Of a stretch of DNA of 64,000 bases, positions 34,044 through 38,403 are shown one piece after another (position 1 is the first letter of the stretch; every line of letters starts with the position of its first letter). The translations under genes were made by a program, and so were the position numbers. Location: positions 558,001 through 622,000 of the forward strand of contig NZ_CP058334.1 in the NCBI RefSeq assembly GCF_013391085.1. Direction: 5' to 3'. Below the pieces are notes generated by a model that did not search any database, was not told the DNA's origin, and worked only from the letters and a program-made list of their open reading frames with translations. The stretch is from Natronomonas halophila (lineage in GTDB: Archaea; Halobacteriota; Halobacteria; Halobacteriales; Haloarculaceae).

Positions 34044-37000
34044 TTAGCACTCGGACCAGCCGCAGGACTCGCAGGTCTTGCAGCCTTCCGAGTAGTACAG
34101 CGTCATGCTGCTGCATTCGGGGCATTCGGGGGATTCGCCGGAGTCGATGAGCGACTGGGTGTCGCCGGTGTCGTCGTTCGGCGATTCCGCGGACTGGGAA
34201 GCCGAACCGGAAGCGGAGACTGCGCCACCGTCGGACGCGCCCGCGTCCGACGAGGATCGGCTCACGGCGCTCGCCTCACCGCCGTCCGTCTCGGGCGCCG
34301 CAGCGTCACGCTCTGCTTCCTCGCGTTCCTCGACCTGCTGGGCCGTCTGGTCGAGGGTGGCCTGGTCGGGGTAGGCCTTGTCGACCTCGCCGTCGAGGTA
34401 GCGGCGCATCGCGGTGCCGATGGCGTCAGGGATGGAGTTAATCTGCTCGCCCTTGTCCCAGGCAACCTTCGGCGACCGGATACCCTGCAGTTCGTCGGCG
34501 ATTTCCTCGGGGTCGACGCCCGAGCGAAGCGCCGTCGAGATGGTCTTCGCGAGCGCCTCGGTGAAGGAGGCGGTGAAGCCGCCGGAGTTGCCGATGTTGG
34601 CGAAGAGTTCGAACGGCCGACCTGTCTCGGGGTCCTCATTGATGTTGACGTAGAGTTTCCCGTAGCCGGTATCGATGCGCTGGGTGACGCCGTGGAGGAC
34701 GTCGGGCCGCGGGCGCTTCTTGCCGAGGTCGACCTCGACGTCAAGCAGGCTCTCGACGTCGGTTTCGAGAGCCGCGGCGACCTCCTCGCTGTCGAGGAAG
34801 CCCTCGATGTCACCGAAGATTTCCTGAATGTTCTCGACGATGGCTTCGGCCGCCTCGGCCTCGTCCATGTCGGAGAACTCGGCGTTCTTCGCGCGGGTGG
34901 TCAGCACCTGCTTCGAGCGGGTGCCGTCACGGTAGTAGGTGACGCCCTTGCCGCCGTGTTCGTAGATGTACTCGAAGACTTCCTTGGCGTCCTCGACGGT
35001 GGAGTCGTTGGGCGCGTTGACCGTCTTCGAGATGGCGGAGTCGACACCCTCCTGACAGGCGACCTGCACGCCGGCGTGCTGCTTCGCGGAGAGGTCGCCG
35101 GTGACGACGAAGAGTTCGCCGATGGCGTCCGGGACGGTTTCGAGGCCGTCGATGCCGTCGAACTCGTTGTTGGCCATCTGCTCCTGTGCTTCCTTCTTGA
35201 CGGCCTCGACGTCGAGGCCGTTCTCCTCCAGCACGCGGAGGAAGTAGTCGTCGAACTCGACGAGCATCTCGTCGCCCTGCACGTCGTCGGAGACGTTCTT
35301 GTAGTAGGCGACGTTGTAAATCGGCTCACAGCCACCCGTCGTGTTGCCCACCATCGAGGTGGTGCCGGTCGGCGCGATGGTCGTCGTGTTGTGGTTCCGA
35401 ATCGGGAAGCCGTCCTCCCAGTTGTCCGCGTCGAGGCCGGTCTGCTTCTCGAACCACTCGCGGTATTCGGTGGGGTTGGCGTACTTGGATTTGTCCCACT
35501 CGTCGAAGCTACCGCGCTCCTTGGCGAGTTCGTGAGAAGCCGACTTCGAGCCGTGGTTGATGTGCCGCATCACCTGTCGGGCGACCTCGTTGCCCTCGTC
35601 GCTGCCGTACTTGATGCCGAGTTGGATGTACAGTTGGGCCAGCCCCATGACGCCGAGGCCGATTTTCCGCATCTCGCGGACCTTCTCCTCGATCTGTGGG
35701 ACCGGGAAGTCCGACATCGTGACGACGTTCTCGAGGAAACGCGTGCCCATCTCGATGCGTCGGTCGAACTCGTCCCAGTCGATAGACTCCTCGAGGAACG
35801 CCGCGACGGCGTCCTCGGTGGAGGCGTACTCGTCGCCGTGGCGCTCGTTCCAGACGCGCCAGTCCGGGGAGTCCTCGGCGGCCAGCGTCGAGAGGTTGAT
35901 GTGGCCGAGGTTACAGGCCTCGTACTCTTCGAGCGGCTGTTCGCCGCAGGGGTTCGTCGCGAGGATGCGGTGGTCGGGGTGTTCCTCGACGTCGAAGGAG
36001 TGCTGTTTGTTGATACGTTCGAGGTAGACGACGCCGGGTTCACCGTTCTCGTGGGCGCCCTCGACGATGTGTTCCCACAGTTCCTCGGCGGGCACGGAGA
36101 GTTCCTCGCCGACTTCGACGTGCTCTCCCATGTCGAACATGTCGTAGAGTTCCTTCGTTTCGGGCGTCGCGATGTGGGCTTCGCCGGTTCGGGGGTTGGT
36201 GAAGGTGAACTCCTCGCCGTTCTTGACGGCGTCCATGAAGTCGTCGGTGATGCCGACGGAGATATTGAAGTTCGAGAGGTGGCCTTCGACGGCGTTCCGC
36301 AGGTGCTTGGGGACGCGTCCCTCGTCGTCGATGAGTTCGCGGGCCTCCTCGAGAGCGTCCGCGAAGGAGTTGTGCGTGAAGTCGTCGGGGTCGTTCAGTC
36401 GCAGCGTCTCCGCCAGCGAGACGTCCTTGTTCTTGGCGTGGAGGAACTGGATGACGTCAGGGTGGGAGACCCGCATGACGCCCATCTGGGCCCCGCGCCG
36501 GGCGCCGCCCTGGGCGATGGTCTCGCACATCTGGTCGTAGGTCCGCATGAACGTGATGGGCCCGGAGGCGATGCCGCCGGTCGAACCGACCGCGTCGCCG
36601 TAGGGGCGAAGCCGCCAGAACGCATATCCCATGCCACCGCCGGACTGGAAGACCTGTGCGGCCTCCTTGGCGGTCTGGTGGATGTCGTCGATGTCGTCCT
36701 TCGGGGAGTCGACGAAACAGGCCGACAGCTGCTGGAGTTCGTCGCCGGCGTTCATCAGCGTCGGCGAGTTCGGCATGAAGGAGAGCCGTTCCATCAGCTC
36801 TTGGAACTCGTCGGCGGTCTCCTCGACGTGTTCGCGGATGTCGTCGGGGAGTTCGGGGACGAGCGTCTCGTAGGCGAACTTGTTGACGTTGTAAATGGAG
36901 AGGGTCGTCTCGGCGTCGTCGTCGGCGGTGACGCCCGTGCCGAAGACTTCCGCGGCGAGTTCGTCGCGGCGCGGGTGGTCGGGCTTGAGCAGGTCGGGGG

Positions 37001-37247
37001 TGACCGTAACGTCGAGGCCCTGCTTTTCGGCCTCGAAGACGGCCTCGGCCAGCGCGATGTTCTTGGCGACGCGGTCGAAGAGGTCCTCCTGTTCCTCGAT
37101 GGGGTCGCCGTTGGCGTCCTTGCGCAGATAGCGGGCCGGCAGGATGTTGTGATAGGCGTTGCCCGTGAGTCGGTCCTCGAGGGTGTCGCCCTCGGTCCGC
37201 TTGACGGGCAGCGTAATCTCGTCCGCGGAAAGGTCGGCCCCGGACAT
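34044..37247 (-). CDS. nrdJ: Ribonucleotide reductase, adenosylcobalamin-dependent (class II)
   Basis: A 1067-aa NrdJ making deoxyribonucleotides. It shows LMNAGDELQQLSACFVDSPK (substrate-site Cys), FQSGGGMGYAFWRLRP, ATNPCGEQPLEEYEACNLGH (active-site NxCxE), and IAPTGTTSMVGNTTGG. The far C-terminus carries a zinc-ribbon tail, ECPECSSMTLYYSEGCKTCE followed by SCGW, preceded by a Ser/Ala/Asp-rich linker. Its length is normal for haloarchaea and no intein is present. It needs vitamin B12; the 568-base gap upstream contains no cobalamin-riboswitch box that I can see. Confidence 0.95.
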   Translation of the reverse strand: MSGADLSADEITLPVKRTEGDTLEDRLTGNAYHNILPARYLRKDANGDPIEEQEDLFDRVAKNIALAEAVFEAEKQGLDVTVTPDLLKPDHPRRDELAAEVFGTGVTADDDAETTLSIYNVNKFAYETLVPELPDDIREHVEETADEFQELMERLSFMPNSPTLMNAGDELQQLSACFVDSPKDDIDDIHQTAKEAAQVFQSGGGMGYAFWRLRPYGDAVGSTGGIASGPITFMRTYDQMCETIAQGGARRGAQMGVMRVSHPDVIQFLHAKNKDVSLAETLRLNDPDDFTHNSFADALEEARELIDDEGRVPKHLRNAVEGHLSNFNISVGITDDFMDAVKNGEEFTFTNPRTGEAHIATPETKELYDMFDMGEHVEVGEELSVPAEELWEHIVEGAHENGEPGVVYLERINKQHSFDVEEHPDHRILATNPCGEQPLEEYEACNLGHINLSTLAAEDSPDWRVWNERHGDEYASTEDAVAAFLEESIDWDEFDRRIEMGTRFLENVVTMSDFPVPQIEEKVREMRKIGLGVMGLAQLYIQLGIKYGSDEGNEVARQVMRHINHGSKSASHELAKERGSFDEWDKSKYANPTEYREWFEKQTGLDADNWEDGFPIRNHNTTTIAPTGTTSMVGNTTGGCEPIYNVAYYKNVSDDVQGDEMLVEFDDYFLRVLEENGLDVEAVKKEAQEQMANNEFDGIDGLETVPDAIGELFVVTGDLSAKQHAGVQVACQEGVDSAISKTVNAPNDSTVEDAKEVFEYIYEHGGKGVTYYRDGTRSKQVLTTRAKNAEFSDMDEAEAAEAIVENIQEIFGDIEGFLDSEEVAAALETDVESLLDVEVDLGKKRPRPDVLHGVTQRIDTGYGKLYVNINEDPETGRPFELFANIGNSGGFTASFTEALAKTISTALRSGVDPEEIADELQGIRSPKVAWDKGEQINSIPDAIGTAMRRYLDGEVDKAYPDQATLDQTAQQVEEREEAERDAAAPETDGGEASAVSRSSSDAGASDGGAVSASGSASQSAESPNDDTGDTQSLIDSGESPECPECSSMTLYYSEGCKTCESCGWSEC

Positions 37248-37815
37248 TACTCGGCCCTCCGGCGACGTGCGGCTTGTTCCCCTACGATTCCTCGGCTAAC
37301 GAAAGTGATGGCGCGGGTCATCTATGACGGAGTTTGCGTACTGTGGGATGCCCAATAACCCTTGGCATCTCGGAAGGGTTCTTGTCGGAAATTCGATACC
37401 GGTTGTGGGCACTAGTGGTTTCCAGCGGAGATGAGTGTGCGCGTGCCCTTGCGCGTACGACATGTGTTGTTCGTTGGGATGCTTATAAGAATGGGTAGAC
37501 CGAAGTGAAAGTGAAAGTTCAACCCCCGAAACCGAGGGATAGAAGCGCTGTTTCCATTGGAAATAAGCGGGGGTTGCAATCAGCTGTTGCACAGGTGTAT
37601 CGATTCACGTGGGAATCCCGTGACCAATCTTCACACCGTCGTATGGTCACGACACAAAACGCGCTCGTGGCCGTGACCTCCAGCAAGTATAATATTCCTT
37701 ATAAAACTCGTTCGCCTTCTTTTCGACCAGTTTCCAGTACTAGAATGTCGTAGTGCACGCCCTGTCGCCGACGTGTGAAATCCGGCCGGGATACGGACCT
37801 ACCTGCGGGCCGGAG
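37248..37815. other. 568-base AT-richer gap with a likely origin recognition box (ORB)
   Basis: At 37551-37576 the plus strand reads TTTCCATTGGAAA, then TAAG, then CGGGGGTTG: the dyad plus G-string layout of archaeal Orc1/Cdc6-binding ORBs. An inverted CAACCCCCG lies at 37520-37528, so the G-strings face each other across a 39-base spacer. Partial dyads are at 37417-37430 (GTTTCCAGCGGAG) and 37729-37745 (GTTTCCAGTACTAGAA). CTTATAAG near 37481 is a symmetrical TATA usable in either direction. No orc1/cdc6 gene lies in the window, and I found no credible gene here. Confidence 0.5.
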
Positions 37816-38403
37816 CTATTCGACGCCTGCCAGGAAGTTGGCAATGACGTCGTGGCCAACCGCCGTCAGCACCGACTCGGGGTGGAACTGGACGGCCTCG
37901 ATGGGGTGCTTACGATGCCGAACCCCCATCACTAACTCCTCGCCTTCGTGGTCCGTGGTTGCCGTCACCTCGAAGACGTCGGGAACCTCCAGTGCGACGA
38001 GGGAGTGATAGCGGCCGCCCTGAAAGCCATCGTCCAGGCCCGCGAAGACCCCCTCGCCGTCGTGGTCGACCGGGAAGGCCTTGCCGTGAATCGGCTCGGG
38101 CGCGCGGCCGACCGAGCCGCCGTACTCGTAGACGGCGGCTTCGAGGCCGAGACACACTCCGAGGGTCGGCACCTCGGGGCTGACCTCTCGCAGTACGTCC
38201 ATCGTCACGCCGACGTCCCGGTCGTTCTTCGGGTGGCCGGGGCCGGGGGAGATGATGATGGCATCCGGGTCGACGGCCCGGACGTCCTCGAGGGAGGCCG
38301 TGTTCCGAAGGACTTCGGTTTCCGTGCCCTCGTGTTGGCTCACGTACTCCACGAGGTTGTACGTAAAGGAGTCGAAGTTGTCGATGAAGAGGACGCGCGT
38401 CAT
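37816..38403 (-). CDS. trpG: Anthranilate synthase component II (glutamine amidotransferase)
   Basis: A 195-aa class I amidotransferase supplying ammonia to TrpE. The oxyanion strand is IIISPGPGHPKND, the nucleophile Cys is in TLGVCLGLEAAVYEYGG, and the catalytic His-Glu is in EAVQFHPESVLTAVG. It starts MTRVLFIDNFDSFTYNLVEY. Last gene of the trpD-trpF-trpE-trpG operon, overlapping trpE by four bases. Confidence 0.94.
   Translation of the reverse strand: MTRVLFIDNFDSFTYNLVEYVSQHEGTETEVLRNTASLEDVRAVDPDAIIISPGPGHPKNDRDVGVTMDVLREVSPEVPTLGVCLGLEAAVYEYGGSVGRAPEPIHGKAFPVDHDGEGVFAGLDDGFQGGRYHSLVALEVPDVFEVTATTDHEGEELVMGVRHRKHPIEAVQFHPESVLTAVGHDVIANFLAGVE

Follow-up and report, generated by a model that had tools for sequence, protein, structure and literature searches.

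An ORB-like box paired with a UV-response motif in the promoter region of haloarchaeal nrdJ

Introduction

To our knowledge, the way in which archaeal dNTP supply is matched to replication and to DNA damage is largely open. The window analyzed here, a 64 kb stretch of a single-contig haloarchaeal genome of 3.21 Mb, poses that question at one locus: why should a sequence resembling an origin recognition box (ORB) lie upstream of nrdJ, a gene for a ribonucleotide reductase (RNR)? The original prediction, made from the letters of this stretch, offered two answers, a dormant or secondary replication origin and Orc-linked control of nrdJ. Among the titles and abstract openings that our searches of open-licence PMC papers listed, we found no description of an ORB-like element at nrdJ. 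A conserved ORB variant together with a UV motif at an RNR gene would bring initiator, damage response and dNTP synthesis into possible contact at a single site.

Results

An ORB-Like Box in the nrdJ–trpG Gap

The features of the locus are collected in Table 1. As predicted, a gap of 568 bases precedes nrdJ, a dyad, TAAG and a G-string follow one another within it at 37551-37576, and an inverted CAACCCCCG is separated by 39 bases from CGGGGGTTG. GC content is about 0.46-0.56 over 37300-37799, with more GC-rich flanks, and a search for plasmid relatives of the gap gave no match. The nearest named nrdJ, among the best 80 of 219 relatives, was that of Natronomonas gomsonensis (87% identical over the best segment). 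NrdR was considered as a ligand of the box and rejected, nrdR having 0 matches in this genome; it was present in 3 of the 31 genomes searched, leaving 28 without it.

Table 1. Genes and sequence elements around the nrdJ upstream region, in window coordinates.
Feature	Position	Strand	Description
nrdJ	34044-37247	-	adenosylcobalamin-dependent (class II) ribonucleotide reductase, 1067 aa; TIGR02504, 739 bits, over cut-off
Intergenic gap nrdJ/trpG	37248-37815		568 bases
Palindrome GTCATAGATGAC	37317-37328	-	directly downstream of second TATA-like block; possible operator, inferred
Second TATA-like block (AAGGGTTATTGGG)	37351-37363	-	possible proximal nrdJ promoter, inferred
TATA box of distal nrdJ promoter (CTTATAAG), probable	37482-37489	-	inferred from sequence
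UV-response block TTTCACTTTCACTTCGGTCT	37497-37516	-	sequence and published motif
UV 11-mer TTTCACTTTCA	37506-37516	-	47 bp from dyad; inside UV-response block
Facing inverted G-string CAACCCCCG	37520-37528	+	39 bases between it and CGGGGGTTG
ORB-like element	37551-37576	+	TTTCCATTGGAAA-TAAGC-GGGGGTTG
Dyad TTTCCATTGGAAA	37551-37563	+	read directly from sequence
Spacer TAAGC	37564-37568	+	
G-run GGGGG	37569-37573	+	followed by TTG; CGGGGGTTG ends at 37576
trpG	37816-38403	-	next gene upstream of nrdJ

The absence of a nearby orc1/cdc6 gene, also part of the original prediction, was borne out by a TIGR02928 profile search of the genome, which gave no match inside the window, a nearest match (below cut-off) about 106 kb from it, and two strong matches about 1.03 Mb off. 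Elsewhere, two orc/cdc6-like frames of 368 aa (C1:447461-448450 and C1:488665-489654) have equal scores below the family cut-off; they lie about 41 kb apart and possibly represent a duplicated segment.

Taken alone, the dyad is mildly unusual: at up to two mismatches the window holds one site, counted on both strands, against a shuffle mean of 0.47, and 13 of 100 shuffles gave at least two matches. The combination of dyad and G-string (TTTCCNNNGGAAA..GGGG) occurs a single time in the 3.21 Mb genome (reversed control 0). When three mismatches were allowed across the genome, the nrdJ box matched with none and eight further sites all with three, as against five control matches.

Conservation With nrdJ

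Searching 20 genomes of the genus (including this one) with the gap gave matches in 14. Seven of the 15 matches outside the window stop at query position 328-329, the end of the G-run (about 37576 in the window), and the alignment holds the box in every member whose segment extends that far. Close relatives in this and the wider alignment keep the box yet lose the facing arm; neither CAACCCCCG nor the partial dyads were conserved in the aligned relatives, as judged by eye, and the facing CAACCCCCG is probably not part of the element.

We then assembled 81 nrdJ upstream regions, namely the window and 80 named loci (the best 80 of 219 relatives), with ten rounds of dinucleotide shuffles as the null. 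The box was recognized in 36 of them at a penalty of at most 3 (shuffles 0-1, opposite strand 0) and in 45 at a penalty of at most 4.5 (shuffles 1-6, opposite strand 9). At the latter threshold it was not recognized in 36 of the 81, among them all sampled Natrialbaceae, Halorussus, Haladaptatus and Halarchaeum. The orc1 gene was present in all 26 genomes checked, four of which are without the box.

Across relatives, the conserved core on the + strand reads TCCA-N3-GAA-N6-GGGGG-TT, and on the nrdJ strand the box of the window reads CCCCC-N5-TTTCYACTGGAWA. Among the 42 boxes of standard spacing, conservation is highest in the C-run and TTC-N3-TGG and lower in the outer parts of what is, in the window, a perfect palindrome. 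The five G-run positions are retained in 42, 42, 42, 42 and 41 of these boxes; the template demanded four of the five, and the G-string is also visible without a template in the alignment anchored on the UV-response block (see below).

Gene order upstream of nrdJ is less constant: with up to 3 kb of upstream sequence taken per locus, trpG was located in 60 of the 80 named loci. The box is kept where trpG was not found, in Haloarcula (L034-L036, L040, L042, L045) as well as in Halorubrum (L075, L080-L083, L085). The alignments show the box to be a conserved putative cis-element of the nrdJ promoter, one that moves with nrdJ. One relative (G005) has two near-identical nrdJ upstream copies about 13 kb apart (C1:981890-981952 and C1:995254-995316; L016 and L010), each with a box.

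Near-Fixed Spacing to a UV-Response Block

On the nrdJ strand, the box is followed 3' by a TTTCACTTTCACTCCGGTCT-like sequence and then by a TATA-like box, whose position is occupied by TTAAG or TTATG in many aligned relatives. The 11-mer TTTCACTTTCA is the published UV-B motif of Halobacterium (Boubriak et al., 2008; PMC2556686). In 45 boxes, the distance from dyad to UV block was 47 bp in 33, 45 in 8, 46 in 3 and 68 in one, whereas the distance from box to start codon varied from 258 to 385.

Of the two elements, the UV block has the wider distribution. It was found, at no fewer than 16 of its 20 bases, in 65 of the 81 upstream regions, with a box at 45-47 bp in 41 of these and none there in 24. 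Examples of the latter (L046, L051, L059, L109) point to loss of the box while the UV block stays. Several Natrialbaceae likewise have the 20-base block and are missing the box; loss of the UV motif in this family, suggested by a search with the 11-mer at one mismatch, was not borne out with the 20-base block.

We searched 391 genomes of the class with two exact composite patterns, each leaving the gap length free. Box plus TTTCACTTTCA, the first pattern, matched once in each of 29 genomes and the second (a looser box plus ACTCCGSTCT) once in each of 40, with 0 matches for either reversed control. All 29 loci of the first pattern lie upstream of nrdJ on the nrdJ strand, with a total length of 68 in 28 cases and 67 in one, and the same placement held for all 30 loci inspected among the 40 matches of the second. 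The 59 inspected loci represent 57 genomes (two are in both sets), and taken together the patterns match in 67 of the 391 genomes, spread over 11 of 84 genera; the remaining 324 have no exact match, with inexact boxes possible there.

The 11-mer occurs six times in this genome (reversed control 3). One site is upstream of nrdJ, and four others, at C1:1132481, 1541335, 3108698 and 3130736, precede a replication factor A gene, radA, a 51-aa frame (MSAGTRTSEPTHNG...) and top6B, respectively. As judged from these sites, the UV-B motif set of Halobacterium extends to Natronomonas. The nrdJ gene is UV-induced in Halobacterium (PMC2556686; PMC1224876, a 2005 study), and by sequence its upstream region has here the makeup of a UV-B response promoter, with the 11-mer upstream of the probable TATA box of a gene that is damage-induced there.

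The sixth site is reversed and falls at the start codon of the second orc gene (C1:1634893-1636014, - strand), where the letters are TGAAAGTGAAA. A GGTGAAAGTGA block, the reverse of the UV motif, lies at or near the second-orc start codon in most of 30 relatives (L127-L156; exceptions L135-L137, L153, L155, L156). It speaks neither for nor against binding of the UV motif by the second Orc, because the same letters contain the Shine-Dalgarno-like GGTGA. The second Orc protein itself was present in all 57 family genomes searched.

Between the distal promoter and the nrdJ start, 37317-37363 (- strand) holds a second TATA-like block and a GTCAnnnATGAC-like palindrome, both kept in many relatives, and may be a second nrdJ promoter with its own operator. 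A structured leader or riboswitch had been suspected from the leader of about 200 nt; the conserved blocks look instead like this second TATA box and palindrome.

Relationship to Origin ORBs

The genome's own origin region, at 1.629-1.636 Mb, contains two strong orc1/cdc6 genes and a cluster of TCCANNNGAAAC-N3-GGGGT ORBs. A family ORB pattern preset to TCCA or TTCNA, GAAA and GGGG was run on 30 orc1 loci and found 110 ORBs in 29 of them, with four bases between GAAA and GGGG in 90 and C after GAAA in 98. The nrdJ box carries both the dyad core, TCCA-N3-GAA(A), and the one-sided G-string of an ORB. Its register in the window is GAAA+5+GGGGG, with no GGGGT in that register, and it does not fit the GAAAC-N3-GGGGT of the group's oriC1 ORBs. 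In all 22 box-holding genomes compared, the box departs from the same genome's ORBs.

Profile comparisons gave a graded picture of this likeness; some genomes may be in both the named and the other records, and distinct sequences were used for the ORB-profile, 79-box and UV-anchored tests. With a fixed-register profile of 144 distinct origin ORBs, the nrdJ box was the top site of the window on both strands at 12.6 bits (next 3.6), below the lowest origin ORB at 16.4 bits. When the G-run was allowed to slide, the box reached 17.9 bits at a shift of 2 (next site 7.4). With up to one mismatch allowed, the canonical ORB pattern matched 15 sites genome-wide (controls 0), none of them the nrdJ box. 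A G-run simply shifted by 1-2 bp against the ORB was entertained as a description and then softened, since positions +6 to +8 of the run overlap in register between nrdJ boxes and origin ORBs.

We further compared 79 distinct nrdJ boxes with two origin profiles, one anchored on GAAAC-N3-GGGGT (174 sequences) and one on TTCCA-N3-GAAAC (130). The scores were 7.9 and 7.7, against null means of 3.1 and 3.0, 0 of 3000 column permutations each, and reverse-complement scores of 4.1 and 4.4; since resemblance to the window's box had guided the choice of boxes, this comparison is in part circular. A cleaner, template-free test aligned 65 upstream regions on the UV block alone, leaving the box unused. 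The resulting 75-nt profile shows aAcCCCCccc..tTTC.ACtGga at the box, and the origin-ORB profile fits it best exactly there, on the ORB strand, at 5.03 (next 2.5, both strands; permutation mean 1.8, maximum 3.03, 0 of 3000 as good).

The original prediction of a haloarchaeal ORB layout thus survives in its core, one-sided G-run and orientation, while the register departs from it, as the 12.6 bits against at least 16.4 reflect. The box is ORB-like, with core, orientation and near-register, and on these letters we do not file it as a canonical ORB. The alignments show an arrangement in which the putative element stands 45-47 bp upstream of the UV block and the UV block just upstream of a TATA-like box, the ORB core being common to the nrdJ boxes and the origin ORBs.

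Some canonical ORBs lie inside coding sequence (C1:1644458-1644477, - strand, equivalent to L250:1501-1520; C1:1644516-1644535, + strand, one mismatch; L028:11085-11104, - strand). One place is the N-terminal linker of orc1; another, about 13 kb away, is the gene for the DNA polymerase II (PolD) small subunit, where they form an inverted pair. In frame, the ORB reads S/A-P-V-E-T-K-G, and the orc1 and PolD small-subunit proteins both carry PVETKGSSS there. An isolated exact canonical match at C1:1245916-1245935 (- strand) stands well apart from the remaining exact matches and the over-cut-off orc matches.

Discussion

The observed spacing and profile similarity lead us to lean towards the box being an upstream operator that would be bound by an Orc1/Cdc6-family protein and would, with the UV-motif factor, control ribonucleotide reductase. 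In the mechanism we propose, the winged helix of this protein would sit on the dyad while its AAA+/ISM part would contact the G-run, some 100 bp ahead of the start site. Given the near-rigid distance between box and UV block, the bound Orc would touch, or act in register with, the factor on TTTCACTTTCA, and nrdJ output would follow initiator amount or nucleotide state as well as DNA damage. The consistent departure from origin ORBs could mean a weaker initiator site or a site for a paralogue, such as the second, widely conserved Orc. Of the Orc-linked control originally proposed, the promoter element has gained support from position and spacing and the Orc family from profile similarity; the box itself departs consistently from the canonical ORB.

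The main rival to Orc binding is an unrelated transcription factor dedicated to nrdJ, for instance a dNTP or cobalamin sensor, whose C-run site merely resembles an ORB; this is possible, if on the unlikely side. It would explain why the inspected matches are all at nrdJ, one per genome, why the next-best sites in this genome have three mismatches, at which the controls match too (8 vs 5), and why the box consistently departs from the ORBs of the same genome. With NrdR missing from most of the genomes searched, a factor of this kind is also plausible for an RNR that depends on B12. It fits less well with the upstream regions aligned on the UV block, where ORB core, spacing and orientation appear and none of the 3000 permutations did as well. 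A binder of the palindrome alone, moreover, needs no one-sided G-run, yet the G-run is among the best-kept columns.

The other answer originally offered, a dormant or secondary replication origin, now appears highly improbable. An ORB-like box with a G-string does lie in a gap less GC-rich than its flanks, and dormant origins are reported in haloarchaea (PMC4595724). In the haloarchaeal layout described, however, inverted ORBs flank an AT-rich element beside an orc gene (PMC3528665, PMC3936714), and deleting either ORB impaired oriC1 of H. hispanica (PMC3936714). Here, the scan for clustered ORBs that had been suggested as a check found one box in the window, where such an origin has at least two inverted ORBs around the AT-rich element, and no second conserved inverted box; the genome's ORB cluster is at 1.63-1.64 Mb instead. 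No orc match falls within 100 kb, the strong orc genes being some 1.03 Mb away rather than directly adjacent, and the box is conserved as a unit with the nrdJ promoter, even where trpG was not found. We therefore reject the origin because the box is single, no orc gene is near and conservation follows nrdJ.

We regard it as extremely improbable that the CAACCCCCG/CGGGGGTTG inverted repeat forms a structured RNA or terminator. Folding is indeed stronger on the + strand than in most shuffles (z -2.55, equalled by 3 of 200; z -1.17 for the - strand), yet the stem is not conserved, because the facing arm is not conserved in the aligned relatives, and no Rfam family passed its cut-off (best E 0.1, 16 of 50 bits). 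Chance resemblance without function, for which the many places to look in 64 kb and the only mildly unusual dyad might be cited, is practically dismissed by the element's conservation and almost constant spacing across dozens of species.

Returning to Orc binding at the nrdJ box, the ORB-like signal sits in the promoter of a gene for DNA building blocks and not at an origin, so that dNTP supply may be tied to the replication machinery. More broadly, and more tentatively, haloarchaea might couple dNTP synthesis to replication through Orc1/Cdc6, either the oriC1 initiator or the second Orc, acting on an ORB variant in cooperation with the damage factor on TTTCACTTTCA. A transcriptional role of Cdc6A has been suggested for H. 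hispanica (PMC3936714). The factor on TTTCACTTTCA goes unnamed in the available part of the 2008 paper (PMC2556686); for isolating it, the nrdJ promoter would also be a clean bait.

Among known systems, the closest in sequence is the Orc1/Cdc6-bound ORB of haloarchaeal oriC1, with which the nrdJ box shares the TCCA-N3-GAA core, a G-run on the same side and the same orientation. The G-run lies at +5 to +8 from GAAA in the oriC1 ORB and at about +6 to +10 in the nrdJ box, which usually has no GGGGT followed by GGGGG, has TT instead of TGGGGG and does not keep the C after GAAA. The ORBs of oriC1 are clustered, while the nrdJ box is single and lies in a promoter. The Halobacterium UV-B promoters are matched by the exact 11-mer upstream of a TATA-like box, here at nrdJ, radA, the replication factor A gene and top6B. 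Four motif genes are named for NRC-1 in the available part of that paper (radA1, vng17, vng280 and top6B; PMC2556686), nrdJ and replication factor A not among them, and that part makes no mention of a paired ORB-like box.

Sulfolobus Orc1-2 provides a likeness of another kind, as an Orc-family regulator of damage genes acting through the DDRE, ANTTTC (PMC9738581). The UV block at nrdJ contains ACTTTC, which fits this element. As described in that paper, Orc1-2 recognizes a short asymmetric hexamer and not an ORB, and the likeness to the nrdJ UV motif is by letters alone. DnaA, finally, acts at the E. coli nrdAB promoter, whose DnaA boxes are likewise sites of the replication-initiator type ahead of a ribonucleotide reductase gene (PMC8203912). 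That system is bacterial, with an unrelated site and protein and a class I enzyme, whereas nrdJ is class II and its initiator binding is inferred. Should Orc bind the nrdJ box, archaea and bacteria would have independently placed an RNR gene under the replication initiator, and the haloarchaeal promoter would be an independently evolved archaeal counterpart of the DnaA control of nrdAB.
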